Below, piece by piece: positions 17,402 through 62,356 of a stretch of 64,000 bases of DNA. Position 1 is the stretch's first letter, and every line of letters begins with the position of its first letter. The DNA comes from Rhynchopus sp. YZ270_cl-10 (Eukaryota > Euglenozoa > Diplonemea > Diplonemida > Diplonemidae): the NCBI GenBank assembly GCA_964035575.1, contig OZ037855.1, positions 1,240,001 to 1,304,000 of the forward strand. The letters are read 5' to 3'. Under the pieces are notes generated by a model, which worked only from the letters and a program-made list of their open reading frames with translations, was not told the origin of the DNA and did no database searches. The translations under genes were made by a program, and so were the position numbers.

Positions 17402-18003
17402 ATGGCAATGCAACGAATCGTTTGTCACTGTATGTCCAAGTAATGAGACCGTGTTATTTTTATTGTTAAAGCTGACTAAGCACAGAGAGGCTTAGGTTCA
17501 TTTCATAATCCCCTTTTTTTATTTCTCCCTTTTTTTTTTTTTTTGCCACACACATTTTTTGTGTGTGCATCCGCGAATATTTCATCATCTTTCATCTTCG
17601 TTTTTTTGTGTTTATTTTGTTTTGTTTTTTGGGGTTTTTTTTTGTATTAAAGAAGCGATGTTACGTTGTGTTGTGAAGAAGATGTGATGTTGCGTGAGAG
17701 AGCAACATATGGGGGGAAGAGAAAAAGTAGGATATTTTGCACACAATAAAAGTTTGCGCTATTTCCAATATTTCCCGGAAAAAAAGGAGAGCGAAAAGAA
17801 CAAAAAAAAAAAAAAAAAACGAGATTCTTGATGTGGCTGAATGGGGTACACAAAGTACGCAATGAAGTGCAAATCAACCCTTCACCCACCACCGAAATAC
17901 AAAAAAAAAAAATTCCATAAAATCCCCCCCATTGTAGATCCTCCTCTCAAAGCTGTTGTGCTCTGGGTGATTGCTGTTGGGGTACCTTTTTTTAAAAATG
18001 GTT
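17402..18003. other. Intergenic DNA between the hAT element and the 12-mer array
   Basis: It begins with the right-hand hAT target duplication, then a CTAAGC/GCTTAG hairpin at 17469-17504. The rest is poly-T and poly-A rich DNA with no coding signal. I see no other structure. Confidence 0.5.
17469..17504 (+). repeat. Dispersed hairpin, CTAAGC/GCTTAG type
   Basis: The inner arms are CTAAGC and GCTTAG with loop ACAGAGAG, and the outer arms AAGCTGA and TCATTT pair imperfectly. It is the same family as 21278-21312 and 62224-62259. Confidence 0.6.
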
Positions 18004-18190
18004 AGCCACCTGATTTTGACACTGAGTTTACCGGTGTTTACCACAGTGTTTACCACAGTGTTTACCACAGTGTTTACCACAGTGTTTACCACAGTGTTTA
18101 CCACAGTGTTTACCACAGTGTTTACCACAGTGTTTACCGGTGTTGTGCGTTGGTAAATACCGGCAAACTCAGGGTCAATATCAGATGGGT
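18004..18190. mobile_element. Inverted-repeat element with an internal 12-bp minisatellite
   Basis: About 38 bases at 18004-18042 (with CACTGAGTTTACCGGTG) recur inverted at 18152-18190 (with CCGGCAAACTCAGGGTC), with roughly five differences. Between them lie about nine perfect copies of the 12-mer GTGTTTACCACA. This looks like a short foldback element whose centre expanded, or one that captured a minisatellite. No target duplication was identified. Confidence 0.6.
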
Positions 18191-18423
18191 TAGGTGACGA
18201 AGCACGAAAGGCCTAGCTTTATCGTGTCTATCTCTTCTTCTATAGCAGACATGACGTCTTTCCTCAAAAGAGAGGATGAGGATACAGTGGTGTGGGTATT
18301 GTGAAAAAAAAAATCCCCCCGTAACAACGGTGCGTATTTTTATTTTGTTTTTTTTGGGGGGTGGTGGTGGGGTAAAACAAGGCGTATCTTTGACTGGTTC
18401 TATTATTTTTTTTATTTTTTTAG

Positions 18424-18456
18424 AAGATGTGTGTGCACGTGAGGCAGATTCATCTT
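18424..18456 (+). repeat. Dispersed hairpin, TGTGC/GCACA type (variant)
   Basis: The outer arms AAGATG and CATCTT are perfect. The inner arms are TGTGC and GCAGA (one mismatch) with loop ACGTGAG. A pyrimidine-rich tract follows. It is the same family as 30168-30200. Confidence 0.6.
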
Positions 18457-18789
18457 TCAACTTTTCAACTTACCTTCCTTCACCCCCCTGTAAGGGCAAC
18501 CGTAGGTGAAGTAAGGTATAGTATTGAAATCGATGTGGGGGGGGAGTAAAGGGTCAATTTTACAAAACCAGATTTTGAGGAAAATTTTAGCCGAAAATGG
18601 GCCCCACGTATAAGCAACCGGGCTCATATTTCTCAAAATTTAAGTGGTCAAAAAATTGTCCAATTTTCGAGATTGACCCCACCACTGCACGGGCGGAGCC
18701 CAAAAATGCAAATAAGGACCCTTTTAAATTTGTTCTCTTGAAATGTGTAATTTTGGGTGATCTATGAACGGGGAGAGATTTTTTTACTA

Positions 18790-19004
18790 GCTCTCAGTAA
18801 GCTCTCACAGGCTCTCACAGACTCTCACAAGCTCTCACAAGGTCTCACAGGCTCTCACAAGCTCTCACAGGCTCTCACAGACTCTCACAAGCTCTCACAA
18901 GCTCTCACAGGCTCTCACAAGGTCTCACAGGCTCTCACAGCTCTCACTAACTCTCACTAAGCTCTCACAGGCTCTCACAAGCTCTCACAGGCTCTCACTA
19001 ACTC
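18790..19004 (+). repeat. Tandem array of 10-mers (CTCTCACAGG / CTCTCACAAG)
   Basis: About 20 near-identical 10-base units follow one another with small variations. The same array type resumes at 19915-20190 on the other side of the 9-bp satellite, so the two blocks are probably one locus that was split. Confidence 0.85.
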
Positions 19005-19154
19005 TGAGGGGTTTTTTGTTAGTGGTGTGGTGTGGCTGGCAACATGTATTCTGTGGTGGTCAAACGTGAAATATTCCTTCTTCAATGGATTTATTGGGCG
19101 TATGTTATACTGGGACAATGTGGTCAGATCACTCTTCAGACCACCTGGCGTTTG

Positions 19155-19908
19155 TATTGTGTATACTGTGTATACTGTGTATACTGTGTATACTGTGTAT
19201 ACTGTGTATACTGTGTATACTGTGTATACTGTGTATACTGTGTATACTGTGTATACTGTGTATACTGTGTATACTGTGTATACTGTGTATACTGTGTATA
19301 CTGTGTATACTGTGTATACTGTGTATACTGTGTATACTGTGTATACTGTGTATACTGTGTATACTGTGTATACTGTGTATACTGTGTATACTGTGTATAC
19401 TGTGTATACTGTGTATACTGTGTATACTGTGTATACTGTGTATACTGTGTATACTGTGTATACTGTGTATACTGTGTATACTGTGTATACTGTGTATACT
19501 GTGTATACTGTGTATACTGTGTATACTGTGTATACTGTGTATACTGTGTATACTGTGTATACTGTGTATACTGTGTATACTGTGTATACTGTGTATACTG
19601 TGTATACTGTGTATACTGTGTATACTGTGTATACTGTGTATACTGTGTATACTGTGTATACTGTGTATACTGTGTATACTGTGTATACTGTGTATACTGT
19701 GTATACTGTGTATACTGTGTATACTGTGTATACTGTGTATACTGTGTATACTGTGTATACTGTGTATACTGTGTATACTGTGTATACTGTGTATACTGTG
19801 TATACTGTGTATACTGTGTATACTGTGTATACTGTGTATACTGTGTATACTGTGTATACTGTGTATACTGTGTATACTGTGTATACTGTGTATACTGTGT
19901 ATACTGTA
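19155..19908 (+). repeat. Homogeneous 9-bp satellite (TATACTGTG), about 83 copies
   Basis: About 750 bases repeat the unit TATACTGTG with no interruption that I can see. The unit contains the palindrome GTATAC. Because 9 is divisible by 3 and no phase makes a stop, several frames on both strands stay open for about 250 codons (YTV, VYC, CIL, IHS and QYT repeats). These are artefacts, not genes. The uniformity implies recent expansion or continual homogenisation, and the true copy number may differ from the assembly. Confidence 0.95.
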
Positions 19909-19914
19909 GGTCAT

Positions 19915-20190
19915 CAGCTCTCAGTAAGCTCTCACAGCTCCCACTAGCTCCCACTAACTCTCACTAACTCCCAGTAAGCTCTCACAAGCTCTCACTAAGC
20001 TCGCACAGCTCCCACTAGCTCTCACTAGCTCTCACTAGCTCTCACTAACTCTCACTAGCTCTCAGTAAGCTCTCACAGGCTCTCACAAGCTCTCACAAGG
20101 TCTCACAGGCTCTCACAAGGTCTCACAAGCTCTCACAGGCTCTCACAGACTCTCACAAGCTCTCACAAGCTCTCACAAGGTCTCACAGCC
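19915..20190 (+). repeat. Second block of CTCTCACAAG-type 10-mers
   Basis: It is the same unit family as 18790-19004, with more variants at its left end (CTCCCACTAG, CTCTCACTAA) and regular CTCTCACAAG or CTCTCACAGG units on the right. It ends at about 20190, before CCTGTTACGTG. Confidence 0.85.
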
Positions 20191-20379
20191 TGTTACGTGT
20201 CCCACGGAGACGATCATAGATCACCCAAATTTCATGTTTTCGCGAAAAAAATAACAACTGATCCTACGAGGGTTGAAGGAAGGTGGTTGAAAACAACAAT
20301 AACAACAAGGACAAGTAATTGCTAAGAAAAATGCGGGGTGTGCTGTGGAAAACTCCGCGCGATTTTCGAAACCACCGTA

Positions 20380-20745: not shown

Positions 20746-21277
20746 ACTTGTTTTTCTTCTTCTTTTTTTCTTTTGGTGAGCCACCGTGACTAAGAGACAA
20801 ATAGGACCATCTTACCAAAGTTTTCTTTATTATTATTTACCCTACCCCCCACCCCCCCCACCGAATCTGTTCTTTTGTTTTACGGTTTTTTTTTCCTTCT
20901 TTTTTTTTTGTTTGTTTTCCTTTCCTCTCAAAAAAAGCAACCAGAAAAAAAAAAACACATGATAAATAGGGGAAAGTTTAGGTGACGCGCTCCCCTTTTT
21001 TTGGAGTGCTTTTTTTTGCAATGATACAAAAAAAAGCCAAGGTTTCCACAAAAAAAACGCAACACAAAATACAAAGATACTCCACAGTTTTGAAATATAT
21101 CCTTCTCTGCCAGATATTCCTTACAGCACCTCTGAGGGGTTCTATAGTATCACGGAACGGATCCTATTAATTGATCAACATCACTTTCTCTCTTCCCTTT
21201 CATTTAAAATGACATCACCCCTGACAACAAACTTGTAGAAGCCAGCGCAGCTGATGCTATGCGATAACGAATATGAT

Positions 21278-21312
21278 AAGGTGACTAAGCACGAGAGGCT
21301 TAGGATCATCTT
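21278..21312 (+). repeat. Dispersed hairpin, CTAAGC/GCTTAG type (near-consensus copy)
   Basis: The outer arms AAGGTGA and TCATCTT (one G-U pair) and the inner arms CTAAGC and GCTTAG enclose the loop ACGAGAG. Two unpaired bases lie on the 3' side. ATAA and a pyrimidine-rich stretch follow. It sits 240 bases upstream of the UBL-WD gene. Confidence 0.7.
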
Positions 21313-21551
21313 ATAAACTTTCATTTGAAATGCCGCTTCCGCCGAAAGAATTCACCCCCCTTCTTACGAACCCTCCCTTCCTCTCCAACTCCACGGCAAC
21401 AAAACTATCAAGCAAAATTAAAGAGAGCACAAAGCACTTTCAAAACATACAAAAAAAACATTTTCAAGCACCATCCTTTTGACTACAGAACAATACACAA
21501 CTCTCAGTAGAATGGAACAATGAGATCATAGATTTCTGTTCTGTTCCTGAG

Positions 21552-23452: not shown

Positions 23453-23484
23453 AAGGTGACTAAGCTCGAGCTTAGGTTCATCTT
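23453..23484 (+). repeat. Dispersed hairpin, CTAAGC type with shortened loop
   Basis: The outer arms AAGGTGA and TCATCTT enclose CTAAG, CTCGAG, CTTAG. The loop differs from the usual ACGAGAG while both arms are kept. Confidence 0.6.
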
Positions 23485-23842
23485 ATAAATCTTAAAAGTT
23501 ATTTGTGCTCTCGTCTCGATCCGGTGTTGTACGTGGGTCAGTTGGACCTGCATCAATCAAGGCCCGGTTCCTGCGTACACAGACAGACAGAGGCGTTTTT
23601 TTTTTCTTCTTGCATTTTGCACTTTCAACTTCCATTTTTGTTGCCAGTGCTTGGGTCCGCCGATGAACGGTGAGGCGTTTGCACTGTCAACTTCTCTTTG
23701 TTTTTTCTTCCCCCCAACTGAACTGATGATTTGATGAATTCTCATCACATTTTTCGACGGAATGTGAGAATGTGAAACCGAAAAAAAAAACTAAAAGCTT
23801 TTTGTTCTTTGAGGAGCGATCCCAAACCACCCCCCACACTTT

Positions 23843-23875
23843 AAGGCGACTAGGCACGAGAGGCTTCGGTCATCT
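23843..23875 (+). repeat. Dispersed hairpin, CTAGGC variant
   Basis: AAGGCGA faces TCATCTC, and CTAGGC faces GCTTCG, around the usual loop ACGAGAG. The arms are partly decayed. Confidence 0.5.
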
Positions 23876-23978
23876 CACAATCTTTTTTATTTGAATACAT
23901 GGTTGACGAAGGGCGAGCACTGAGGGCTTAGGTTTACCGCAAGCTTTTCTTTATCCCACCCCCTTTTTTTATATGACC

Positions 23979-24013
23979 AAGGTGACTAAGCACGAGAGGC
24001 TTAGGGCCATCTT
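23979..24013 (+). repeat. Dispersed hairpin, CTAAGC/GCTTAG type (near-consensus copy)
   Basis: AAGGTGA/TCATCTT-type outer arms (here with GGCCATCTT on the 3' side), CTAAGC/GCTTAG inner arms and loop ACGAGAG, followed by ATAAA and poly-T. Confidence 0.6.
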
Positions 24014-24674
24014 ATAAATTTTTTTTTGTTGCTGTTGAGCCACATTCCCCATTCAGGTTCTCCCTGCATTTAATTCCCCCAGACACATCCTCTGAGGCTG
24101 CTACAGCATTTGCCCACCTTATCGATCGCCCTTAATTGTTCATTTTACCCTTCAAAACTTTCCTCCCAAACAAAACGAAACAACCGGTGTGTCCCAATTA
24201 TCTCACCCCTCAATCTCCGGATGGTGCTCTGTAAATACCCTGGCCTTTCTCATGGTATCTGAATTGTGTTCTGGTCGTGCACCAAACACTGTCACGAAAT
24301 GGCTTTTTTTTTTTGTATTTTCAAAATCGCACCTGAGTCGTCATGAACCTCTCCGGGACGATTTGGTATAGTAAATCACTTTTTTTCCCAGCGTTTTTGA
24401 CATAGTGGCTGAATGATATCAGATTTTAAATTTCTGCTTTATTTTTCAAATAAACCCCCCCCTCTCATCTTTAACATTAAAAAGCGAAAACCTATCTTCT
24501 TTTGCCCCCTCCCCTCCTCCTCTCCTCTCCTCTTCTCCTCCCCAACCAATGATACGCGGACGCCGTATTATACGCCAAATACAACATAGAATTTTTGTTT
24601 GTTTTTTTTACCACTTTTTTTATTACCCCCTCTTACTTTCACTCCTGACAGACACAAAAAAAAATCTTTTAGAA

Positions 24675-25424: not shown

Positions 25425-26066
25425 ATGTCTACCGAAAAACCTTCTTTCTCGATAATCAAATTCGACCCTGCAGTGCACCATGAACAAGCCCTTGATGCCT
25501 TGGAAACCGCCTTTGCTGAGGACCCTTTCATGCTTGAGATGTGGAAAGGGGATCAACGCGTGGTAGGTCGAAAGGCCTTTTTGGAGGCAGTTTTGGTGGT
25601 CAAAAAGGACGAAACAATGGTGATGGTCGATGATGAAGATGGCGCGGTTGTGGGGGTGTTGTCCTGGCAGTCACGCGAACCAGGGTTTCTTCAGGAGGAG
25701 ATCGCCATCGGACGGCTGTCCATACGGTACTGTGGACTGTGGGGTGCTTTGGGGACCTTGTGGAACTACATCAATGGTGTCGCGTCTTTGATGATTGGGC
25801 TTCGTCGTGATTACGGAAAGAACCGGCTGTATCTGAAGCTCGTTGGGATTCACTCCCGCTACCACGGTAAGGGCTGTGGAACGCAGCTGCTGCAACAGGC
25901 CCTCGAGGAGGTGGACAACACCACAGGGGCGTCGATCTACCTCGAATCCTCCAACGAGAAGAACCTCCGGTTCTACCAAAGACACGGCTTTGAGTTGCAT
26001 GAGAAGAGGCTCTGGCATGGCGCAGCATTGTACCCGATGGTGAGACCCGGTAAGACGTTTCAGTGA
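25425..26066 (+). CDS. GNAT-family N-acetyltransferase (copy 1 of a tandem pair)
   Basis: The product has 213 residues. GNAT enzymes move an acetyl group from acetyl-CoA to an amine. The acetyl-CoA loop is visible as RYHGKGCGTQLLQQALEEV (about residues 146-164), followed by a GASIYLESSNEKNLRFYQRH block with the usual Asn and Tyr, and GFELHEKRLW as the final strand. This resembles the single-domain acetyltransferases in which the substrate cannot be read from sequence. The gene at 28416-29057 has the same length and nearly the same sequence. A pyrimidine tract and CCAG at 25402 precede the ATG by 22 bases. Confidence 0.85.
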   Translation: MSTEKPSFSIIKFDPAVHHEQALDALETAFAEDPFMLEMWKGDQRVVGRKAFLEAVLVVKKDETMVMVDDEDGAVVGVLSWQSREPGFLQEEIAIGRLSIRYCGLWGALGTLWNYINGVASLMIGLRRDYGKNRLYLKLVGIHSRYHGKGCGTQLLQQALEEVDNTTGASIYLESSNEKNLRFYQRHGFELHEKRLWHGAALYPMVRPGKTFQ

Positions 26067-26121
26067 GAAGGGTGTGAATGAGACATAGTTCATTTAGTGG
26101 TGAAAAAAAAAGAAACATAAT

Positions 26122-27238: not shown

Positions 27239-27615
27239 GTTTCTCACCTGTTGTGTCTCACGAAAGACCGTGAGGCGAGACAACTCCGCCGGAGGCCCCC
27301 GACCCGGCGCGCGAAGCGCGCCGGGCTCGACCTGTATTGTGTTAAGCACTAGTAAAAAAAAAATTTTTGGGGGGGGAAAAAAACTCGTCCGCCCCCTTCG
27401 AAAACACCGGAAGAACGCGGAAACCCTGCCAATCCTGCGCAAAAAAAAAAAAAAATACAAAAATCAGAAATGCACGCAAGTGCCGCACCTCCAATAAACG
27501 TAAAAAAGAAGAAGAAAAAAAACCTAAGTTCGCGTGAGACATGATCACCGTTCAAGTTTCCCCCCTCCCTTTTAGTGTGGAGCTTCGTCCACCGTATGCC
27601 TTCCTTTTTGTTAAA

Positions 27616-27640
27616 ATATGTGTGCACGAGAGGCACATTT
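27616..27640 (+). repeat. Dispersed hairpin, TGTGC/GCACA type (outer arm lost)
   Basis: TGTGC, loop ACGAGAG and GCACA are intact, followed by TTTCCC. The AAGATG/CATCTT outer arm of the family is not present. The module around it is related to the copies at 30120-30200 and 30880-30915. Confidence 0.55.
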
Positions 27641-27666
27641 CCCAAGTTTCCCCCCTCCTTTTTATT

Positions 27667-30167: not shown

Positions 30168-30200
30168 AAGATGTGTGTGCACGAGAGGCACATTCATCTT
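30168..30200 (+). repeat. Dispersed hairpin, TGTGC/GCACA type (reference copy)
   Basis: The outer arms AAGATG and CATCTT (6 bp) and the inner arms TGTGC and GCACA (5 bp) are both perfect, with a 2x2 internal loop (TG against TT) and loop ACGAGAG. A TCAAGTTCTCTTTTG tract follows. Compared with the CTAAGC type, the inner arm is wholly different yet fully paired and the loop is identical. Confidence 0.7.
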
Positions 30201-30612
30201 TCAAGTTCTCTTTTGTTTTTTTTCCCCTTCCTTTTTTTCTTTTCGCAGCAACAAAAAACTGTGATCCGGCGAAGCAAGTTAAGCGTCATCAGTGTGTCAT
30301 CTGCCACACAGGTGATATCGTCGTGTTCATCAGTAGTTACGTACAAGCGTGTGGTATAGTGGGGGTCATCTTCGATGTCTGCACTAATACAAGGTTTTCA
30401 AAAAAGCAACGATCAGAGTTTCCAAGCAGGTGCACATCTACCTATTTGGATGTGTGCACTGTCTGCTAAGCTTGAGTAGTTGCATTGTGTGTTTTTTATA
30501 CAAACGTTACTTTTTAAAATATACAGAGATATCCAGTGTTCCTGGGTTTTCTTATTCAGTGCCTGCGTCCGCCGATGGCGTTTGCATTTTCAAGTTTTCT
30601 TTGTTTCAGCTC

Positions 30613-30642
30613 AAGATGACTAAGCAGAAGCTTGGTATCATC
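30613..30642 (+). repeat. Dispersed hairpin with AGAA loop (copy in module b)
   Basis: AGATGA faces TCATCT, and CTAAGC faces GCTTGG with one U-G pair, around the 4-base loop AGAA. In the paralogous copy at 31346-31375 the inner arm is CCAAGC/GCTTGG, turning the wobble into a Watson-Crick pair. Confidence 0.6.
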
Positions 30643-31345
30643 TGTACGAACCTTTTCCCCCACAACCTTCCTTCACCCCCTCCCATGTGGCGATCTTCCC
30701 CCCAGCATCCAAAGTGCACTCAGATGTGCAAAAGTTTTCGATTGTTGCTCCTTTTGAAAGATTGGCTCGAAATGTTTCTCAAAAAAAAAAAAAAGTGTTT
30801 TTACGAAAATGAGTAGGACCTGCATCAGAGCATGTTGTCCACAGATCGTAGGATAAGCTTTTGCCCCCGCTCTCCCCCTTTTTTTGTGCACGAGATGCAC
30901 ATTTTCCCAGGTTTTTTCCCCTCCATTTTTTTTGATTTTCGCACATAGAAAATGTGATATCAAAGCAAGTAACAACAAAAAACTGTGATCCGGCGAAGCA
31001 AGTTAAGCGTCATCAGTGTGTCATCTGCCACACAGGTGATATCGTCGTGTTCATCAGTAGTTACGTACAAGCGTGTGGTATAGTGAAGGTAGTCTTCGGG
31101 TGTCTGCACTAATACAAGGTTTTCAAAAAAGCAACGATATCAGATCAGAGTTTCCAAGCAGGTGCACATCTACCTATTTGGATGTGTGCACTGTCTGCTA
31201 AGCTTGAGTAGTTGCATTGTGTGTTTTTTTATACAAACGTTACCTTTTTAAAATATACAGAGATATCCAGTGTTCCTGGGTTTTCTTATTCAGTGCCTGC
31301 GTCCGCCGATGGCGTTTGCACTTTCCAGTTTTCTTTATTTCATCT

Positions 31346-31375
31346 AAGATGACCAAGCAGAAGCTTGGTATCATC
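31346..31375 (+). repeat. Dispersed hairpin with AGAA loop (copy in module c)
   Basis: AGATGA/TCATCT outer arms and CCAAGC/GCTTGG inner arms, all Watson-Crick, with loop AGAA. It differs from the module b copy by the single T-to-C that improves pairing. Confidence 0.6.
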
Positions 31376-32104
31376 TGTACGAACCTTTTTCCCCACAACC
31401 TTCCTTCGTATTCCAACTCCCTTCATTTTTTCTATTCTGGGGCGGGTTGGAGTAGAGCCACACTTCACCGACAGGTCGAGGTGTGTGTGTTTCACCACAA
31501 CCTCTCCCTTTTGTCTTTATTGTTTTTATTGTTTTATTGCTTGCGGGGGTAGGGGAACAACAAAAAAAAGGAAAAGTAGGAGTGCGGTTTCAATTCTGGC
31601 GTGCTCATTTTTTATCGATACAAACACTCGTAAAAATATTTTCTGATTGGCACTTAGACGGTTGTTGAAGTACATTACATTGCCCATTGAATTAGGGGAC
31701 TTGCCCCTTTCAACGTATGGACATCACCTGTTTCGCCCTTTTATTGTTCTTTCAAAAAAGAAACTTTTCAGATTTGCGCGAGCTGCATTCATTTAAAGTT
31801 CTCTCTTTTTTTTATTACCGTTCTTTTATATTTTCTATACCCCAGCATTCCAGCATTTCAGCACATGCCTCCACCCTCCTGCATGCTAGGCATTTTAAAA
31901 AGAAGCACACACCACCTCCCTCTAAGTACGTTACTATATATATCACGCTCTACGATCGAACCAAGAAGTGTCTTCTGCTACAGCGTATCTGTATCTGCAC
32001 CATCCCAGCAAATGGCAAGACAGATCATTTCCTCCTCCTCATCCTCATCCCCTTCGTGCAGACCTTTTCTTCATTTTTTGAAGGTTTTTTAGAACACATT
32101 CATA

Positions 32105-33238: not shown

Positions 33239-34598
33239 TTTAATAACTTGACGCTTTTTTTTGGGGGGGAAATATTGGGAAATATGGGGGAGAATAAAAA
33301 AACAATACCTTGGGGTTTTTTCAACATATCTCGTGTGTACAACAATTTGCATTTCTTTTTTTTCTGCGGTTTTTTTCTGTTTTGTTTTGTTTTTGTTTTA
33401 GCAAAATTCTTTTCCCCCCCTGCTCAAGTGGTTCTCATGTTTTAATCGGCAGGGAGAACACGATAGCTATAATGAGAGAGAGAGAGAAAATGTGCCTTTT
33501 TTTTAAACAACGTTGTGATATGTTGTCATTTCCCCCCCTGGCCCCCTTGCGTGGGAGTGCTTCTCTTCATTGATTCGAACAATATTGGCACGTGTAAGAA
33601 AGGGCCGTGTAGGTGGTATTTTTATTTTGGGAATCTGGTCAAACGATTGGCGTTCTCAACATTAATACAGGGCGCACCCGAATGTACGGTGGAGAGAACA
33701 CACAGCGTTGCTTTACCCACCTCAATAGCCCTAGGAAATAGTACCGGTGGGCGAAATTTTTGGGTGAATTTCTTGAAGGCATGGTTACCCTGCAGAGGGT
33801 AGCTGTGACTCCCTCCAACTTCAAATCTATTTCTTTAAAAGTGTCGGCGTTCGCCAGTGTAGCTGCGCTTTGTTTTTTCCTTTTTTTGCACTTCAAAAAT
33901 TATCCCATTAAAAAATATTGTGTTCGTCCTTCCCCAGATAGCAATTACTTTTTTTTTGGCTAAAAGACTACACATAGTGAATCACCTTCTTGAACAAAAA
34001 TACATGTGGAGGGCTGTTGTATAGCCTTTTGGATACACTAAACCACCCAAAACAGCTTGCCCCAGCTTGACCCCACAGTTCAAAAACGAGACGATGATTC
34101 AATTGAACAAAAAAATATCCATTGACAGCAAATATTCAAAAATTAATTCCAAAAATGAAACAGAGATAGGTGATGGCAGCATGCAGACAATTTTATTTTT
34201 GCGTGATCTGCCCCCTTTTTTTTTCCAGATTATTTGAAGGAGCGGAAGTTCCATTTCTATCTATAGGGGCTGGATAATGAGGTGCCGATGGCGGCTCCCT
34301 CTTTATCGGATAAGATATTCTTTTTTAGAAAAAAATGGGAAAAAATGAGGGAAAGAAAACGGGGGAGAAATTCTTGCCCACGCGTGGGGAGCAATCCCCC
34401 CCCTTTTTTTGTGTGTGTTTTTTTTTGTGTCCCCCTTCCTCCATTCTCTTTCTCCCTCTCATTCCCAAACCAAAAACCCCAACCTTTCTCTCTTTTTTTT
34501 TATACTGTACTTCATTGGTATACACATCACACACCCCACACGACCGTCCCCCCGGTTCTTTCCTTGTGGCGCATCTGCCTGGGTCCTCTCCCCCTCAG
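33239..34598. other. Intergenic region between the kinase and LINE ORF1
   Basis: No gene is supportable. It has T-rich tracts, a GAGAGAGAGAGAGA microsatellite at about 33472-33486 and, in its second half, probably the 5' untranslated part of the LINE, whose left edge I cannot place. A pyrimidine tract ends in CCCTCAG directly before the ORF1 start at 34599. Confidence 0.5.
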
Positions 34599-34899
34599 AT
34601 GTCGCTCCTAGCGAAAGCCAGAGAGACCTACGACCGTGCGCAAGCACTGGTCCTAGCGTCGAACTCAGAGGAGACCAAGATCCTTGCACTACAGTGCATT
34701 GATCTCTGCCTGAGTGTCCTGGGTGCCCCCCAGCCTAATCCCCCACATGGTGCTGATAACAGCAACGGCAGCAGCAGGACCGCATTTGGCGGCGGCAGCA
34801 GCAACAGCAACATCAACAGCAGCAGCAACAACTACAACAACAACAACAACAACAATTCCAACAGAAACAGCAACAGAAACAGCAACAGCAACAACAACG

Positions 34900-34941
<42 letters not shown>

Positions 34942-36482
34942 ACAATGGCAACAGCAACAGCAACGGCAACAGCAACAGCAACGGCAGCAACAATAGAAAC
35001 CGCTCTGCATGGGTGCAGGTCCCCGGCAAGAACAGCGGCAGCAACAACAACAACAGCAACAGCAACGGCAACAACAACAACAGCAACAGCAACAGAAACA
35101 ACAGATACAGTCCGCTGAGTGGCACGCGCGGTGAACGTGGAGAGGAGGATGGCGTCAACGACGACGAAGGACGCGACGGCGAGGAGCCCTCGCAGGAATG
35201 GGCACACGTGGTGAGAGGCAGCAGGCAGAAACAGAGGCTGCAGAAGTTTTCGGAGTACCGGCGCATTGCTGAGGAGGAGCCGGATACAGTACGAACGACG
35301 TTTTCGCTTATGCGGAGCCAATTCGGGGGCGCCCCAATTTGCCGGGACGTGGACTTGGTGATGACGGCGATGGACTTGGCGTTCATTGCAGATAACGCAG
35401 ACGAGGCGAGACTCGCTTGGGAGGCCGTGCTGACACGCGAGGAGGACATCCGGAACGAGGCTGCCTTCCCGAGGATCGCCGTGTACGCGAAGAAGCGCTT
35501 CTGTTCGCGGTGTGTGGCAGTTACGCTGCGGTCGGAGAATAAGACTCTCAAGCAGCAACGCGATGAGACTTGGTACGCGTGCTACTCCCTACTATGGGTG
35601 ACGGAGATGACGGAGGCGATGCCGAAGACGGTACACGTGAATGCACGACCCTCCACCGCAGTACTCATCTGCACGTTATCGGAGAAGTTTGCGGATGCAA
35701 CGACATGGAGACAAGCGGAGCGCAACCCTGGCATTATGATGCCGAGACTGCTGACAGATCTGTGCAAGGTAGTGCAGCACGTGGTGAAGCCCAGCAACGT
35801 GTGGGACTACTTCCGCAGAGAGAACGAACATGGGAATGGGCATGAAATTAGCCTACGCGTACCGGTGAGTAAGGTGGAGCAGCTGCTGTCGCTGTCGGGG
35901 AAACAGGGGCTTTTTCTCAAGCCTCTGAAGTGGCACTGTGGCGGCGACCAGTACCCTGTGGCCTGGCTGGACCGGTCCGTGACGCTCGAGAGAGCACTAG
36001 ATTTGAACACACGGAACCCCAACTCCTGCATAGGGCTGGCTGTGGGAGTGAGTGGGGGTTTGGCCCTAAGGATGAAGCAAGGGGTTGACTTGGACACCGT
36101 TCGCAGAGAGCTGCACGGGTCTCTCGCGCCCATGTCGAACGATCCCTCTCTGGTGAGGTACACAGTGTCGGGTGCACGGCACTACGAGGAGGCGGCAGAC
36201 GTCATGTCCGTTCTGCAGAGCACGAGCTGGCCATGCACACAGCTGGCAACATACAAGCGCAAAGGACAGACGTGGCTGATCGTGGCCGCGAGCACCGCCC
36301 CGCACTTCACCAACATTGAGCGCCCAGGCCAGTCCATGGTCACAGTCAGGCCAGCATCGTCTGCGGACAGCCACCGCCCCCGCACTAACAGGTTCACTGG
36401 CAAATTGGTGTTCCCATCAGAGTCATCCGAGATGGAGACGGAAGTCGTTGAGCCAGAGGCGACAGTAGAGCCCGTGTTGTGA
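34599..36482 (+). CDS. LINE ORF1 protein, Asn/Ser-rich
   Basis: I start at the ATG at 34599 (MSLLAKARETYDRAQ), after CCCTCAG; the frame is also open upstream to 34335 but with low-complexity sequence. The product has about 627 residues. Residues about 50-165 are an Asn/Ser run built from AAC and AGC codons. A charged segment follows (VVRGSRQKQRLQKFSEYRR), then a folded-looking domain to the end with no motif I recognise: no CCHC knuckle and no clear RRM. By position it is the RNA-binding ORF1 protein of a LINE; the role is inference. The frame ends in UGA followed directly by CGG, with ORF2 continuing in the same frame. Confidence 0.7.
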
Positions 36483-39400
36483 CGGAGCGAGAAGCGTGAC
36501 CCCGAGTCGCTCGCAGCCCACAACTACGAGCAGCTTCCCCGCGAATGCATAGAAACACGCCCTGGTCCCCGCCACTTCCCAAACCGAGCCTCCACATCAT
36601 CATCATCATCATCATCATTTTCTCCTCGCCCCTTTTTCCCTCCGTCACTCTCAGACACATCTTCTTCCTCTGCTTCCTCTTCTTCCTCCTCCTCTTCAAC
36701 GGATAGATCCTCCTCCTCACGTACGTGCTGCTCTGATGCTGAGAACACGCTTACCCTAACGACGATCAACTGCACATCCCTGCAGAACTACGCGCACACA
36801 ATCCGCGACCTTCAGTGCGATATCGTCTGTCTACAAGAGACAAAGTTGACCGAGTCCAAGATATTTGAGATGCAAGACTTCTTCACCACAGTATGGTCCC
36901 CAGAGTGGGGCCCCCCCATGGATGGCGCACTCGTCCATGGCATCCGCAGTCCACACATTGGGGAACGTGGGGGAGTGGCCACCATGCTGAAGAGACCGGG
37001 CATCATGTTCCTGGACACCGAACTGACGTCTTCTCTGAAACCCACGCTGCGGAAACGTGTGGTGCACACACGTGTGGCGCTTGGTTCCGGCCGTCTGTTC
37101 CTGCATGTGGTGAATGTGTACGCCCCGTCAGGTGACACGCCAAGAGCTACAGTTGCTTCCCGCGAAGAACTCCTCCACACAGTGCTTGTGAAGTTTCGAG
37201 AAGCCCTGGGTAACGTTCCGTTGATTGTGTGCGGCGACCTCAACACCGATGTGGAAAGATCACCAACATTGCGGAAAGCACTCGCCAATGACTGGTGCGA
37301 CGTCGCGCTCCTGGGCAACACTGGGGATGACGGCAAGCCCCCTGTCACGTTCACTCGCAAAGACTCAGCAGGAACCCGTATCGACTACATCTTGCTGAAT
37401 AGCGTCGCCGCACATGCCATCCATAGCTGTTGGACACAGAGCATTAACTGCATTCCCAGCCACAAGTCCGTCAACGTACGGCTCTGCCTCTCAGTGTTTA
37501 CAGAGTCGACACTCCGTTACACTATTCCCAAACAGATGCCAGAGCTTGGAATTGTGGTGAATGCTGAGACAGTCGGCAGGAATCTTCTACGACAACACAA
37601 CTGTGCCGCTGCACTTGCGTCCGGTGATATTGACGATGCGTGGGAAGCGATCGCATTGGCTGGGGAAGGGTTTCTCCTGCTCGCGGCAAAGGCAGCTGGT
37701 GACACGCTCTCCAAAGGGTTCTGTGGCCGCTCCAAGGTTCCCCAGCCGGTGTTGAAGCCGATGTGTGCACCTACACGACCGGCGTCTGTTGGTGGGTCTT
37801 CCCCCCGACAGGACCAGCTTGCTAAATTCGAATACAAACTCACGGATCTCATTGCAAAGACAGAATCTTGTCCTGGTGGGGTGATGGAGAATCCTGTGCG
37901 CAATGCCTGGGGTAAAGTGTTCCGCACCGCAATTACGCTCAAACTGCTGAGGTCCGAAGAGACGACAATCCCACCCGCGCTCGAAAAGCAGCTACAGATC
38001 CTTAACTCTCTGCTGGACAAGTCCAAGATGCTTATAAACCTTGAGATACGCAACACCCGTCTACAACGCGAGAAGCAGTACACCACCAAGCTGAAGGTAG
38101 ATTTTAGCAGCGAACGACGAAAACTCACGGCGTGGTGCATGGGTAAACAGGGTGTTCCTATTTCCGCCCTGCGGGGCGAGGATGGCGTGGTTACGGCCAA
38201 CCACAGGGAGATGGACAAACTACTGCGTGATGAATGGAAATCAGTGTTCAACTTATACGACCACGACCATCCCGAGCCAACTCTCACCTCTTTCGAGCAA
38301 CGTTTCGGCAGCTTCGTCGCACATTCCCCGATGTCCCTAGACCCGCTAAGTGGTGCTGACTTGCGCAGAACGCTTGACAAGAAAGGTAAGCGCACGGACG
38401 CCTGCGGAACTGATGGCTGGCGCTCATTGGAGCTTCATGCGATGCCCCTGTGCATACTGGACGGTTTTGCCCGAGTGTTCAACGCGATAGAGACGAACGG
38501 TGTGTGGCCGCAAGCGCTGTTGACCGCCCTGGTGACGCTCCTTCCCAAAGGCGAAGACCAGTCCCCCTTGAAGCTACGTCCTGTGACAGTGACCAGTGCG
38601 GTATACCGGTTGTGGGCCTGCGCACGCCTGCAGGCAGTTCAACAATGGCAGGAACAATGGGTACACCCGTCGCAACATGGCTTCCGCCCAAAGCACAGCA
38701 CGAACGACGTCTTGTATGACGTCTTCACACAGATGGAGGACGCTCTGCTCGGTGGCGAACCGCTGCACGGTCTGGCGCTCGACTTTGCGAAGTGCTTCGA
38801 CCGCGTACCACAGGGCCTCACCTTGGATCTTGTGGAGAAGATGGGGCTTCACCCCAGGATCATGACACCTCTGCGAGCGATGTACGCCAAGCTGAGACGG
38901 CGGTTCAAGCTGCCCTCCGGCGTAGGAGAGGCGTACTCCGTGACGAATGGGATTCTGCAGGGGTGCCCCCTCTCTGTGGTGCTCATCAACGCCCTGATAT
39001 CAGTCCTGACACACTGCGTCACAGCGGAAATACCTGAGGCGTTTGTACGGTCGTTTGCTGACGACGCATACCTTTTGTCTCGCCATAGTGAAGCTTCGGT
39101 GGGGGCATGCCTGCTGCGAGTGGAGGACTTCTGCCGCATCACAGGCATGCGCCTCAACATGGCGAAGACCTTTGCCTTCTCATCATTGAAGAACCACAAA
39201 TGCAAGCTGAAGTCTGAGGACAACCATGTGTTCCAGACAACAGAGTCGCTCCGCTCACTCGGCGTGATGATGTACAGCTCCCTGCGACGCAAGGGGCGAT
39301 ACAACGCTACGGTATACCAGTCAGCCGTGAGGGCGCTCTCATGTTTGGGTGCGACACCGCTCTCCTTCTCCCAGAAGGTGTCTATTGCCACATCTGCCAT

Positions 39401-40480
39401 CCTCCCTTCAGTGTTATACGAGTCCGCCTTCAACATGCCCCCTCGGTCAGTGATGAATGGGATGATCTGCAGAGTAAACGCCCTACGTACGACGGCATAA
39501 ACGACGGCATTGACACCCGAGCCACCAATGCCCTGTGGCGCAATCTACAATACCACGACCCCCTCAAGGCTTTCCGGATGCGACGTGTTCTGTGTGGCGG
39601 AATCCTCTTCTGCCACCCAGCAGGGCTCAAACGCAGTGGCTTCCCCGAGGCGGACTTCAGCGATAAATGCCCCTTATGCCTCGTCCAGGTTACATGCCAC
39701 ACACGCCACCTACTGTGGCACTGCAGCATAGTGCACACACCAGCGTTCACTGCCCTACATGAGTCGGCCATCAGCCTCTATGGCAAAGGGCTTCCCACCT
39801 GCTTTGTGCTGCACGGCATTGTACCCTCCAATGTGAGCAAGGTAACGGTGAAGGCGGTACAGTCTCTTCTCCTCGATGCCGTCACCACGATCGACACAAC
39901 CCTCTCAAAAGCTGTGGATGTGGCCCCGGCTGTACATCCTTGGGATCTCACATTTGCTGCCTCCAAACGGGATACCCCCTTCCGCACATATCTGACCAAG
40001 CTGCAACCTAGTTTTTCCTCCACCTATAGGGAGGCGTTCACTTTGAAAGCTTTCCTGTGGTGGGTGATTACGCTCGAGTGGAGCAAAGAACCCCGCGACG
40101 TGTCGTGTGTCGAGCTCGCGGTCGACTTCGAATTGCGCACAAGGGTCTTCCTCGCCAAACAGACCTCTAATATCCGCGAGCGTGGGCGGGCCATGCAAAG
40201 GCTCATCGTCAAGACCAACATGCGGGCTTTAACAGCGAAACTCCGCCGCGCCCCATTCCCGGGTGTGAAAAAGGATCGTGTGCACTCCCTCCGTTCCGTC
40301 GGCGCCCCAGCGCTCATTGGATTCAGCAGACGCCCAGTGTTGTGTGCTAAAACACGTGCTTTTCTTGAATCTTTAAATCATGTTGTCCCCCCTTCCCGGT
40401 CAGGGTGGGGTAATGAATGTATACCTGCTTACAGCTTCCCTGTAAACCAATCCCAAGCGCAACACTCCGGGGTTCGATAA
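36483..40480 (+). CDS. LINE ORF2: EEP endonuclease, reverse transcriptase, zinc knuckle (one frame change)
   Basis: The frame is open immediately after the ORF1 UGA. A Ser-rich linker leads to the endonuclease: TINCTSLQ, QCDIVCLQETKL, VVNVYAPSGD, IVCGDLNTD, GTRIDYILLN and a PSHKSVNVRL close. The reverse transcriptase follows, with LLPKGED, LRPVTVTSAVYRL, QHGFRPKHSTND, ALDFAKCFDRVP, NGILQGCPLSVVL and RSFADDAYLL (the active-site aspartates). There is no ATG between the UGA and the start of the endonuclease; the first is near 36873, inside it. The reading shifts frame between about 39440 and 39500, after which CPLCLVQVTCHTRHLLWHC gives a CCHC-like knuckle. The stop at 40478-40480 lies inside the T-arm-like hairpin. 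The frame change could be damage or a sequencing error. Confidence 0.8.
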
Positions 40481-40530
40481 CCCACGGAGTGCCAGTGCCT
40501 GCGTCCCAGAGGCGTTTGCACTATCAACTT
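40463..40530 (+). repeat. T-arm-like hairpin plus CCAGAGGCG hairpin at the LINE 3' end
   Basis: CACTCCG and CGGAGTG pair around GGGTTCGATAACCC. The second hairpin follows: AGTGC/GCACT, CGTC/GGCG, loop CCAGA, then ATCAACTTCACTTT. The stop codon of LINE ORF2 lies inside the first hairpin. Copies without the LINE are at 6256-6345 and, in part, at 75-119, 257-300 and 15719-15754. Either this is the shared tail by which a SINE uses the LINE machinery, or the solo copies are 5'-truncated LINEs. Confidence 0.65.
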
Positions 40531-40666
40531 CACTTTATATCCCATCCACCCCTCTATTTCCCCCTCAAACTTCTCCACCAGCACATACACTTCCCCCTCA
40601 TCCCCTCTTCCTCCTCCTCCCCTCACCCCCCCCTTTCCCCCCCTTTGCGATTTAAATTAATTTTCA

Positions 40667-41956: not shown

Positions 41957-41987
41957 AAGGTGACTAAGCAAGAGGCTGGGTCATCTT
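41957..41987 (+). repeat. Dispersed hairpin, CTAAGC type (short loop)
   Basis: AAGGTGA faces TCATCTT, CTAAGC faces GCTGGG, and the loop is shortened to AAGAG. It lies 60 bases after the stop of the UBL-WD gene, within the likely 3' untranslated or intercistronic region. Confidence 0.55.
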
Positions 41988-42514
41988 ATAATGTTCTTTT
42001 ATTTCGGTTATCCGCAGATGTTTTTGCGTCGCAGAGTAGTATTATGCAGGTGTGCTTTAGATGGTTGTGCGTGAGACGGTTTGCGGGTTATCTTACGATT
42101 TTTCACGAAAAAAAAACAGGCATTTTATTTTTTAGCATATCCCGAGTTAAAACCTCGAGGGTTCCAGAGCGACTCCAATCGTATTCTCCCTAGATGTGTT
42201 TGGCGGTTCAGAAGCGTGATAAATGCGCTCAATGTTTTGTTTATGATAAACTCCCAGAGGGGAGGCAGAAAATTAAATACCCGCAGAGCTGAGAAGCAAC
42301 TGGTGTATTTTTTTTTATTTTTTACGCACACTACTTTTGTGAGCGGAAAGTGTCACGCCGTTCACCCAACCGCGCAACACCACCCAACAGATGAGAGAGA
42401 GTGTGTGGAAGCGTCAACGCATCAAACCACTACAAGAAGGGAGGGGTGAGGGAACGACACTTTTCTTTCGATGGAATTTTTTTTACAGCTTTAACCTTGT
42501 GAGTGTTTTATTCT

Positions 42515-42602
42515 AGATGTGTTACGAGAGGCACATTCATCTTTCAAATTTTCTCTTTTTTTCTAAGGTGGCTAATAAGCACGAGAGGCTTAGGATCATC
42601 TT
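42515..42602 (+). repeat. Two adjacent dispersed hairpins of different arm type
   Basis: At 42515-42543, AGATGTG and CACATTCATCT pair with ACGAGAG in the loop (TGTG/CACA type). At 42565-42602, AAGGTGGCTAATAAGC and GCTTAGGATCATCTT pair with the same loop ACGAGAG (TAAGC/GCTTA type). Having both types 20 bases apart, in the same orientation and with one loop sequence, is the clearest sign that they are one family. Confidence 0.7.
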
Positions 42603-43399
42603 ATAATTTTTTCTTTTTTCTCTACAGTCTTCTCATGCACAGGAGTCTACGAAGGCAGACTTATGTTGCCATGGGATGTGTGTTGCGTCCGAAACAAAAC
42701 TGTCGTCCTTTTAACAGCGTTTCAGGAAAGTTTTTAATTTCCCTTCTTTTTTTGTCTTTTTTTTCTTTCTCCAACAGCTTGTTCCCGTACAATATCGAGG
42801 ATGTGCACGAAGCGACACATTTTCATCGTTTACGTTATTCGTTCTTTTTTTGCTTTTGCTTGTGTCAGGTTTCATTCAATATTGTCAAAAGCTTTCTTTT
42901 TTTTTTCTATCATCTTCACTTTTTTTTTTCAAAAAAAAAATACTATCTCGGTTTTCTTCTCTCCACCCCCCTTTCTTTTGATAGGGGCTTGGCCCCTTCC
43001 ACAGCCGCTTCATCACCACAATTTTTTTTCCTCAACCTTTTGAATTTGCGAGAATCCTTCTTTTTTTTTTTTTTTCGTGTGTCAAAAAGCTTAAAAAAAC
43101 GTACTCTCCCTTCCCCTCCTTTCAAACAAACCAATACTTTCAGGCGGACCCCTCTCAACACCTTCCATCGTTTATGTTGGTATGGCGTTAATTCCACATA
43201 AAACCGAGGAAGTAACGCCAACTTTAAGTACCGTCTGGACTGTATGCTACACAGAATAACGTTAAAGACCTCTCGACAGTACCTTACGCTTTGTTTGTGG
43301 TATTTTGTTTAATACCACAAGTAGCTTCCTACTTCATGTTTTTCACTTCACTCTAATAGTCCCCAAACCCTCAAACCCCCAAACCACCACCCCACAGAG

Positions 43400-46714: not shown

Positions 46715-46825
46715 ACAATCTCATTTAAAAATTTCTCTGAATGATTCAATCGTCTCAAAAAAAAGAGTTTCTTTTAAATTTCACTTTTTTTCAACAAATT
46801 CAACACAGGGAAAAAATCCCAAAAA

Positions 46826-52696: not shown

Positions 52697-52729
52697 AAAA
52701 GATGTATGTGTATGGCACATTCATCTTTT
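52697..52729 (+). repeat. Dispersed hairpin, TGTG/CACA type
   Basis: AAAAGATG faces CATCTTTT (8 bp), and TGTG faces CACA, with a changed loop (TATGG). It lies 500 bases after the PP2C stop. Confidence 0.55.
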
Positions 52730-52812
52730 CACGTTTTTCTTTTGACTTTTTACGATTTGTTACAAAAAAACTATGGACGGCTTTTTTGTTTTTTTCTCAT
52801 TTGGGGTAACTC

Positions 52813-59182: not shown

Positions 59183-60759
59183 AGAAGAAAGGGGAAGCTG
59201 ATAATCTCAAAAAAATTTTTTAAAAAAAGAGCCTCAAAAAAGGTGAAAGGAAGAGGAAGGGGTTCACGACGTTGAAGTAAATTACTTTACTTGTGGTTTT
59301 ACATGTCATTTTTTTTACTTGTGTCCAAGCTGTACGCTTACGTTTTTACGTGTGCCACAAGTAAACTATTTTCACAAGTAAAATTACATGTAAAACCACA
59401 AGCAAAGTACTTTACTTCAACGTCGTGTTAGGGGGGGAGGGGGAGGGGGTGTTTTTTCTCTTCCTCGGCTTTGATAAGCCCAAGTGGATGGGGTTGTGTG
59501 GAGATTTTTTTTTTTTGTTGAATCTCATAAATGGGGGGGAGGGCATCGTGGGGGGGTTTTTTTTTGGAGATGTGTGTTGTTGTGTTGTGAGGCTCAGTTC
59601 ATCTCTCAAAAAATGTTTGTTTGTTGTTTTTTTAAATCTACTCTTTTCAAGATGTGCGGGTCCTGTGGACACATTGCCAAATTTTTCAAAAGGAAAAAAA
59701 AATGACATGCTGATTTACAGCATGTGATCTTTTTCTCAGCCTGACAGAAGTGGCACCCTCGAGGTGTACGCACGGTTATCAAATTCAGTTTCTGTGGTTA
59801 GTCTCATGTTACCGAAAAACAACCAAACTTTCTTGGTAAAGTTTTGAACAAAGAAAAAACCAGGCAAAACGTGTGCCCATCACAGCACGTTTTCAAATAA
59901 AAATAGTGAAAAAAAGGAGTGAAAGTTTTTTTTTTCCAGAATAAAAATTAGCAATAAAATATAAAATATAGGGTGGTTTTGAACAAACGGGGGAATGTGA
60001 CGATTACCGCATTCTTTTCCTTCTCTCTGCTGATCTCGAGTGATCCGAGACTCTTGTTGTGTCATTTTTTGCGGTTTAAACTAATACTATTCCAACGAGT
60101 TTTGCAGGGAAGCTGTGGGGGTCGGTAACTGTTATTTTTTTTTTGAACCCTCCCACACCCTCGTGAGATCAAAACAAGATTTTTTCTTAAAAGTCTCAGT
60201 CCAAAAAAAGGTGGGCAAAAAGAGCAAACGTAAACGCAGGAGAAAGGGAGGGGGTGGGAAGAAATGCAAAAAGAGGAAAAAAAGAATAAGTTATCCAAGA
60301 AAACAAATATACGAGGAAAAGAAGTCACTTCCCCCCCCCTGAGTGGGAACTTGTGGGTGGAATACGGCCCGTGTTATCCGCAGTCCCCCCCTCCCCCAAA
60401 ATGTGACTCGAATTTATAACCAAAGAAACTCCCCTTGTTCCCACAGCGCTTTTTCAAGTTTACCTCATTTCGCAAGGTGGCACAGTCTGTCATATCTTTC
60501 GATTTTTTTAGTGAAACGCAGGAGTTGAATCACTTACCCTTCATAGACATGCATGCCATTACTTACCCCATGCCTGGTCAAGGTGGCTCTCCTCTCTCTC
60601 TCTCCATCGCTTCAGTACGTTACTACCAACACATTTTCTGCCCTCACATAAGCGGACGTTCACAGAGGCACATCCATCATTCAAGTTTCCTACCCCACAC
60701 ACACACACACCGTACCCTTTGCAGACAACCCCTTCAAACAACCCCCCACACACAACACA
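59183..60759. other. Intergenic region between NAA15 and ATP synthase delta
   Basis: Contains the foldback element at 59265-59427 and a degenerate hairpin at 59577-59606. The rest is homopolymer-rich with no coding signal. The end has a CACACACACACAC tract, then CCCTTTGCAG at 60724, 35 bases before the start of the next gene. Confidence 0.55.
59265..59427. mobile_element. Foldback MITE with 42-bp inverted ends
   Basis: The ends begin CACGACGTTGAAGTAAA, and the 42-base arms (59265-59306 and 59386-59427) differ at about two positions. Further pairing inside (TTTTACTTGTG against CACAAGTAAAA) makes it nearly one long hairpin. The 163-bp element lies 82 bases after the NAA15 stop, so it may be in that gene's 3' untranslated region. 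The flanks share TT only, so no clear duplication. Confidence 0.8.
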
Positions 60760-61530
60760 ATGTTCCGCAGAGTCGCACCCACCCTCATCCAGGCCACCAA
60801 GCCTGTCTTCGCGAGGAACCTTGCATCTGGCTGGGAGTACACCGCAAGCCCGACTGACATCAACACCGCCGCCACGGTCGAGCAGCCGACCGACCTGCTC
60901 CTTACCCTGACCCGTCAGGACGAGTTCCTCATGGCCGCGGAGACCGTTGTCTCCGTGACGATCCCCACCGAGAACGGTGTGATGGGAGTCCTCCCCGGAC
61001 ACGAGTACGTCATCGAGAAGGTGCTCCCCGGAGTGATCGACGTGAAGAGGAAGGGATCCGACGGCAAGGAGGAGGACGTCCAGTACGCAACCGCAGGAGG
61101 GTTCGCGCACGTCAACACCGATGGGTCCGTCGACCTCCAGCTTGCAGAATGCGTGCCGATCGCGAGCATGGACCTCGCCAACTGCGAGAAGGAGCTGGCA
61201 GCGGCACAGGTATGAGGGAAGGGAACCACCAACTTTATTTTTTTCGGGAAGGGTGTCGTCTGAATAGGGATTTTCATAAATTTCCGCTGTTTTTCCATAC
61301 TTTCCTGCAATTATTTTGCATACAAGAGACTTAGAGGGGGTTTTTTTTGGGGGAATGGTTCGAAAAAGTTTAAAACCATCCTTTTCAACCACGTCGCATC
61401 ACGCAAAGCAAAAAATACCCACCTTTCTTTTTTCCAGGAGCTCGTGAGGGCGGGTGACGACGCTGGAAAGGTCCGTGGTGCTATTGGAGTTGCCACCATG
61501 GAGCCCATCATCACAGCGCTCAAGGCATGA
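60760..61530 (+). CDS. Mitochondrial F1-ATP synthase delta subunit (bacterial epsilon homologue)
   Basis: Exons at 60760-61209 and 61438-61530 join in frame to 180 residues. The subunit belongs to the central rotor stalk of the F1 complex. The N-terminus MFRRVAPTLIQATKPVFARN is a typical mitochondrial presequence (basic, no acids). The mature beta-sandwich is clear: VVSVTIPTENGVMGVLPGHE, a conserved family block, then YATAGGFAHVNTDGSVDLQL and the small C-terminal helical part (LANCEKELAAAQ..ELVRAGDDAGKVRGAIGVA). The 228-nt intron splits that helical hairpin. A candidate acceptor (TTTGCAG) lies 35 bases before the ATG. Confidence 0.95.
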
Positions 61531-62356
61531 TCAGTTTTAACAAAAACCCAAAAAAAAATACAAAAAAATACAAAAAAATAAAATAAAGTAAACGAATACC
61601 GAGCTTCCCAATAGGAGATAGTTCACTGGGTCGGGGGAGGGAGGGGGACCCGCACAACGAAGAGTTTTGTTCAAGAACAAGAAAAATAAAAGGAAAAAAT
61701 GGGTGTACGGTGGAGTTACCGTATTTTTTTTTTTTCTCTGTCAAGTTTTGTTGTTGAGGGTGAAAAAAAAAATGGGCGATAAACTTTTGACAGCAGAAAA
61801 AAAAGGGAGAGAGACTTGTTCAAACAATGTGCTGGTAAGGGGGGGGGCGAAAAAAAGAAGAAAAAAAGCAAGGGTACAGCAAGAAAGCCAATGCATGTCT
61901 ATTGTATTTCTTGGATGAGAGGAAGAAAATAAAACTCCCGAAAAAAAGGGGGGGTGGAAAAAGGGGTAGAGGGGGTTTAGGGGTAGGGCCATTTTTTTTT
62001 TTTTTGTTGTGTGTAATGGGTTTATGTGATACCCATTGAAAAAAAAGTGAGAGGGAAAAAAAAATCAAAAAAAAATACCCCTGAAGTGCATTCCTTCACG
62101 AACGGTAAATAAAATAGACGACTTTATTTCAATTCTCCTCCATTTTTGATCCCTCACCATATACTATCAATTTATTGATTGCATATGATGGAAATAATTC
62201 TCCTCCAACTGCTGTGATGCGCAAAGGTGACTAAGCACAGAGAGGCTTAGGTTCATCTTATATTCTCTTTCTTTGAATGGGCAAGGAAATAGCTACCTCA
62301 ATTACCACCAATCCCAATCCAGTACGCCCCAAGCACCACTTACCCACGCTTCTAAA
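61531..62356. other. Intergenic region between ATP synthase delta and the DnaJ gene
   Basis: Homopolymer-rich, with an AATGGGT/ACCCATT inverted pair near 62016-62040 and a good CTAAGC-type hairpin at 62224-62259, 98 bases upstream of the start codon. No gene is supportable. Confidence 0.55.
62224..62259 (+). repeat. Dispersed hairpin, CTAAGC/GCTTAG type, near the DnaJ start
   Basis: AAGGTGA faces TCATCTT and CTAAGC faces GCTTAG, with loop ACAGAGAG. The loop carries the same 2-base difference as 17469-17504, while both arms are consensus. It could lie in the 5' untranslated region or just upstream of it. Confidence 0.65.

Follow-up and report, generated by a model that had tools for sequence, protein, structure and literature searches.

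Short hairpins dispersed in the genome of Rhynchopus sp. are probably 3'-terminal stem-loops of long interspersed nuclear elements

The short hairpins dispersed over a 64,000-nucleotide stretch of the genome of the diplonemid Rhynchopus sp. YZ270_cl-10 (contig OZ037855.1; C23:1240001-1304000 in our numbering, hereafter the window) are most probably the 3'-terminal stem-loops of stringent-type long interspersed nuclear elements (LINEs). They would have been inserted mostly as the hairpin alone and in the direction of transcription (or replication), a reading to which we give a probability of about 0.86.

The hairpin family and the LINE end of type A

A preliminary description of this DNA had proposed a dispersed stem-loop family and a covariance-model search for it. 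The family is confirmed in the window and throughout the genome (152 Mb, 126 contigs). A covariance model (R1) trained on 13 window copies gave 14 matches in the window at E<=0.05. All lie on the + strand, and 13 belong to the set on which the model was trained. Support from outside this set comes from 14 new matches at the same threshold in 20 further stretches of 10 kb outside the window (200 kb, at places chosen by us and not drawn at random). This corresponds to 70 per Mb and, extrapolated from these chosen stretches, to about 10,700 hairpins in the genome; at E<=1 the model found 43 matches over 293 kb. Two main subtypes were recognized, A (AAGGTGACTAAGCACGAGAGGCTTAGGATCATCTTATAAAC) and B (AAGATGTGTGTGCACGAGAGGCACATTCATCTTTCAA), and both fold more stably than shuffled sequences (z of -3.3 and -3.7, respectively). 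The 23-nucleotide core of type A has 1,449 exact copies in the genome (728 on the + and 721 on the - strand; none for the reversed control) and the exact 35-mer of type B has 22. The sequences of the ten sites listed earlier are all present, at the given positions or a few bases off. The copy at 28190 does exist, but it has CAGATT in place of AAGATG, a different loop and no R1 match at E<=1. Moreover the loop ACGAGAG, described as fixed, is not, since ACAGAGAG, AGAA and TCGA were also seen. No Rfam match at gathering thresholds and no tRNA were found in the window, and the noise of a mechanical hairpin scan was too high.

The parent of type A was sought with a 62-mer consisting of A and 17 further upstream bases; with 40 of 787 candidates scored, its identical copies number at least 40. 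At the 16 of these places that were fetched, chosen for their identity to the 62-mer, upstream similarity ends at differing points and the longer ones have coding sequence in common; six copies that were translated showed near-identical C-terminal protein sequence. In the L090/L044 copy a frame of at least 621 aa ends in the stop codon of the second open reading frame (ORF2), which is followed by 10 nt and then by the A hairpin, and the ORF2 of L090 carries the Pfam domains Exo_endo_phos and RVT_1. Among the matches listed are 23 A LINE ends with the same sequence throughout 119 aa. The type A hairpin is therefore the 3' terminus of a non-LTR (long terminal repeat) retrotransposon, because the longer copies reach the end of an endonuclease and reverse-transcriptase reading frame, the hairpin lies just past the stop and the 5' ends are variable. 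The stem-loop at the 3' terminus is common to long and 5'-truncated copies.

Hairpin-only copies and marks of insertion

Forty A copies were fetched from the first 100 listed of the 1,449 exact cores. In 31 of them the similarity to the LINE is lost 0-6 nt upstream of the core, at the base of the hairpin, and the remaining nine have longer 5' extensions, of 8 to at least 160 nt. The upstream flanks of the 31 short copies are at the shuffled level in a gapped comparison with five LINE ends; one LINE-extended A copy, L011:4038, was seen by the gapped and not by the ungapped comparison. Most fetched A copies consist of the hairpin and about 11 nt (TATAAACTTTTC), about 46 nt in total, and hairpin-only copies also make up 10 of the 11 A copies examined in the window and 8 of the 10 in the sampled stretches. 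Type B starts like A, at the hairpin: 13 of the 16 copies fetched (of 22) are without clear common upstream sequence, and three (L094, L095, L104) share one. Retroposons made up of the hairpin alone would be exceptionally small and would offer a natural record of what a LINE enzyme needs for recognition. The copies in the window are the following, with their R1 scores and the basis of each row.

17469..17510, + strand: A-type hairpin, hairpin-only (53.8 bits; upstream without LINE)
21278..21318, + strand: A-type hairpin, preceded by about 71 nt of LINE 3' end at about 21207-21277 (63.5 bits; extension comparison)
23453..23490, + strand: A-type hairpin, hairpin-only, loop TCGA (49.3 bits; upstream comparison)
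23843..23882, + strand: A-type hairpin, hairpin-only (46.9 bits; upstream comparison)
23979..24019, + strand: A-type hairpin, hairpin-only (60 bits; upstream comparison)
30614..30651, + strand: A-type hairpin, hairpin-only, loop AGAA (40.8 bits; upstream comparison)
31347..31384, + strand: A-type hairpin, CCAAGC/GCTTGG, loop AGAA, within a local duplicate of the 30614 stretch (41.7 bits; flanks, upstream comparison)
41957..41993, + strand: A-type hairpin, hairpin-only (41.8 bits; upstream comparison)
42565..42608, + strand: A-type hairpin, immediately 3' of a B-type one (44.4 bits; outside the training set; upstream comparison)
62224..62265, + strand: A-type hairpin, hairpin-only, loop ACAGAGAG (58 bits; upstream comparison)
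18424..18462, + strand: B-type hairpin (48 bits)
27613..27647, + strand: B-type hairpin, outer stem lost (22.4 bits, E 0.087; compared with its duplicates)
30168..30206, + strand: B-type hairpin (51.8 bits)
42515..42549, + strand: B-type hairpin (37.6 bits)
52699..52733, + strand: B-type hairpin, degenerate (29.8 bits)

The hairpin-only A copies lie in T-rich targets, with T making up about 0.7 of the bases at positions -1, -2 and -6 to -8 (32 copies; its share in the sampled DNA is 0.255), and a T-rich tract is also found downstream of the hairpins. In addition, the upstream flank of 29 A copies matches the sequence 19-21 nt past the core (mean match 2.66 vs 1.48, standard deviation 0.29, 0 of 2000 permutations). 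These offsets were picked after a scan of the same copies, and over the unpicked range of 8-24 the value is 1 of 300; at offsets 13-16 and 24-27 the flank matching of the 29 copies did not surpass all of the permutations. The signal at 19-21 places the end of the element at about TATAAACTTTTC. Single duplications are short and T-rich (for example TTTTATTTC, TTTGTTTTT and TTTGTTT). Target-site duplication is a statistical signal, and for type A only. Among the possibilities raised in the preliminary description, that of a very small structured retroelement is thus supported, as the A hairpin forms the 3' end of a LINE and its hairpin-only copies show the duplication signal.

Several observations weigh against the reading of the hairpins as inserted LINE tails. 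A duplication match of at least 5 nt was found in only 8 of the 29 A copies, and two of the 40 fetched A copies (L080 and L081) are a single duplicated insertion. Type B gave no duplication signal in 14 copies, the extended L104 among them, and no intact B parent was found, the longest open frame listed being 288 aa with 150 of 434 candidates scored; its LINE origin rests on the three related upstream stretches mentioned above and on a by-eye likeness to the A C-terminus. A third, C-type tail, described below, never stands as the hairpin alone among the 3 matches found, a count that leaves more diverged C copies outside. The local duplicates of the window were searched for an empty site and gave none, a B remnant being present in all three units. 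One of the reading frames at 25425-26066 and 28416-29057, which are highly similar and lie in a locally duplicated stretch, matches GNAT acetyltransferases.

The hairpin-only copies could instead be an independent micro-SINE (short interspersed nuclear element) with its own source gene and borrowed LINE machinery, as the sharp 5' end at the hairpin base and the high share of hairpin-only copies in the fetched, sampled-stretch and window sets would allow. We consider this unlikely, since bulge and loop variants of the hairpin-only copies recur in LINE-extended ones, which suggests several LINE sources, and no RNA-gene head was found in the window.

Orientation along chromosome arms

The gene-sense orientation noted in the preliminary description was borne out in 26 of 26 R1 matches at E<=0.05, counted over the window and those sampled loci for which a gene strand was called. 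This strand was called by a vote weighted by reading frame length, weakest in L017 (0.66). L011, with two + hairpins, was left out of the count, its vote being minus and opposite to the hairpins; its one long reading frame (L011:4860-5933, - strand, 357 aa) looks by eye like the tyrosine recombinase of a mobile element, so that the vote may not reflect the host genes.

For a view on a larger scale, 279 listed places were pooled, with some overlap: 40 of the 62-mer, 22 of the B 35-mer, 97 of the 100 listed for the A core and 120 LINE C-terminus rows. They lie on 79 contigs and show 23 strand switches in 200 neighbouring pairs. The patterns were - (31 contigs), + (26), - then + (21) and +-+ (1); hence 78 of the 79 contigs have at most one switch, always from - to +, as if there were two divergent chromosome arms. 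Along a chromosome arm, LINEs and hairpins point the same way, which is the gene direction where checked. The preliminary description had set against its view copies equally common on both strands and explained as fragments of one longer transposon. Fragments of longer elements are indeed part of the answer, but the strands are not used equally relative to genes.

A strand asymmetry of T-tracts was considered as the cause and rejected, the bias, up to about 2:1 for some motifs, being judged too small. Away from hairpins there are 238 T-rich 16-mers in sense and 220 in antisense orientation; with hairpins unmasked, the sense and antisense counts are 211 and 200 for T runs of at least 8, 806 and 836 for TTYTTTTY, 176 and 120 for 14-base pyrimidine runs, 16 and 8 for CTTTTCTTT, and 72 and 35 for TTTTCTTT. 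With a bias between parity and 2:1 in favour of sense, the target sequence alone seems insufficient to determine the orientation. Antisense copies, at 46 nt, also seem to be only weakly selected against, and the directions of transcription and replication are inseparable in these data. Co-orientation stricter than the strand bias of the target raises the question of how a retrotransposon learns the direction of transcription, which the polycistronic Euglenozoa are suited to testing.

Tail lineages, proposed mechanism and known systems

The window also contains a LINE of its own:

34335..36482, + strand: ORF1 of the window LINE (37% identity over 168 aligned positions to L090 ORF1)
36870..40480, + strand: ORF2 of the window LINE, endonuclease and reverse transcriptase, frame broken (Pfam RVT_1 and Exo_endo_phos)
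40463..40536, + strand: 3' end of the window LINE, two C-type hairpins, of which the first spans the stop codon (shared by ten fetched relatives)

Its ORF1 had no Pfam match. The ORF2 consists of two overlapping frames (36870-39500 and 39341-40480), is 44% identical to that of L090 over 879 aligned positions and has its C-terminus matched at C23:1280100-1280429. This LINE is related to the A-type LINE, but its own tail is a different hairpin pair, common to the ten fetched relatives (L107-L115, L120; fold z -4.57). The first hairpin (40463-40491), CACTCCGGGGTTCGATAACCC(A/G)CGGAGTG, lies across the stop, resembles a tRNA T-arm on an acceptor stem (also in the ten relatives) and has one base changed in L112. 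A tRNA origin was rejected, as no tRNA was found and the T-arm-like GGTTCGATAACCC belongs to this stop-codon hairpin. Two more repeated tails look like LINE 3' ends, namely GTACCAAGGTACAC...CACGAGAGGGCTTTGTATTTCAAC and GGATGGCTGGCAT...GGTGCCTGCAT...AACT (window 15994 and 187-219; L118, L101, L028). Elsewhere in the window, positions 18746-20237 hold long tandem arrays of 9- and 10-base repeats. The genome gave 30 matches to the Flagellar_rod family, with 0 in any of 14 control genomes.

The earlier claim that the arms covary was evaluated on an alignment of 42 distinct matches to the structure of the model itself, with shuffles for comparison. Paired cells were 91.6% (86.1% shuffled) and 21 cells had changed on both sides against 6.4 expected (0 of 500 shuffles); the base pairs showing such two-sided change were 5 against 3.4 (65 of 500 shuffles). 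Inside A (33 rows), single changes broke a pair in 25 cases and left a wobble in 13, and double changes were compensated in 6 cases and uncompensated in 1; the outer stem is lost in two of the three window B duplicates. The covariation is mainly the difference between A and B; most arm changes inside A break or wobble pairs. The pairing thus varies from one lineage to another, which is what one would expect if every LINE protein maintained its own tail and copies decayed once inserted. As a caution, what covariation presents as a 'structured RNA family' can turn out to be a set of transposon tails.

Host RNA signals under selection (for processing, trans-splicing or in 3'-untranslated regions), one of them acquired by a LINE as its tail, would agree with the gene-sense orientation, the A/B covariation and the T-rich tract downstream. 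We regard this as very unlikely, given the breaks and wobbles inside A, the lost outer stems, the duplication signal, which favours insertion, and the lack of clear pyrimidine-AG enrichment (of 37 hairpin copies, 17 have a pyrimidine-AG as their first AG within 50 nt, as do 93 of 238 control T-tracts). The trans-splicing or processing signal offered in the preliminary description is thus not supported except by location. What we take to be a spliced-leader-like motif has 674 exact copies in the genome; many of those listed form arrays in which spacings of about 419, 434, 579 and 741 bases recur (C1, C2, C3, C9, C11, C13, C17, C22). An introner-like element making introns (AAG|GTGA start; TATAAAC, pyrimidine tract and AG end) is suggested by the splice-like letters seen by eye at both A ends and by the numerous introns reported for diplonemids in PMC12621601. 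It is highly improbable, as the bases preceding the element form a T-rich tract that is not exon-like and B has no GT at the corresponding place. A foldback or MITE-like (miniature inverted-repeat transposable element) DNA transposon, which the near-perfect inverted repeat recalls, can practically be dismissed in view of the 5'-truncated series joined to a reverse-transcriptase frame.

If the hairpins are LINE tails, the ORF2 protein would bind the stem-loop, by analogy with the zebrafish LINEs of PMC4176376, may nick the purine-rich strand of a T-tract and would copy the RNA starting at the hairpin end. Usually the hairpin alone would be copied: either cutting or trimming leaves a template no longer than the hairpin that the protein binds, or the enzyme stops once past the hairpin. 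A and B would differ since the tail, under a similar loop, is particular to each LINE lineage, with decay following insertion. A protein that reads the loop, as the preliminary description had imagined, or the stem is plausible, but it would be the LINE's own ORF2 protein. As a tentative suggestion, which we lean against rather than towards, insertion might be steered by transcription or fork direction through strand information absent from the T-tract DNA (e.g. the U-rich nascent RNA, or the template strand trailing the polymerase), the usual product being a protein-protected 3' hairpin retroposon of about 46 nt.

Among known systems, PMC4176376 describes stringent-type LINEs with a stem-loop in the 3' tail (UnaL2, ZfL2-1, ZfL2-2) and their partner SINEs. 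Like them, L090 and the window LINE have an ORF2 with endonuclease and reverse transcriptase, the stem-loop is at the 3' end and short copies share the tail. Unlike them, the tail here ends in TATAAACTTTTC ahead of a T-rich tract, the majority of fetched copies contain nothing of the LINE but its hairpin end, and there is a single orientation per chromosome arm. The hairpin-only copies resemble a SINE in their LINE-like tail and differ in having no tRNA-, 7SL- or 5S-type head with a pol III promoter, the window being without tRNA or Rfam match and 31 of 40 elements starting at the hairpin. The SIDER retroposons of Leishmania (PMC2689281) are likewise truncated retroposons of a euglenozoan, sense-oriented inside 3'-untranslated regions. 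They differ in occurring also antisense between polyadenylation and trans-splicing sites and are extinct, whereas here the 23 A LINE ends listed are identical over 119 aa and the units are of about 46 nt. Titles and abstract openings in the open-licence literature gave no account of a mechanism for hairpin-only LINE copies and nothing on diplonemid retrotransposon hairpins. Diplonema papillatum has many retrotransposon reading frames and unidirectional gene clusters, according to PMC10161547, whose main text contains the words 'hairpin' and 'stem-loop' 0 times. Its LINEs are the first named relatives of the reverse transcriptase described here, about 49% identical; closer matches, at 97% and 54%, come before them.

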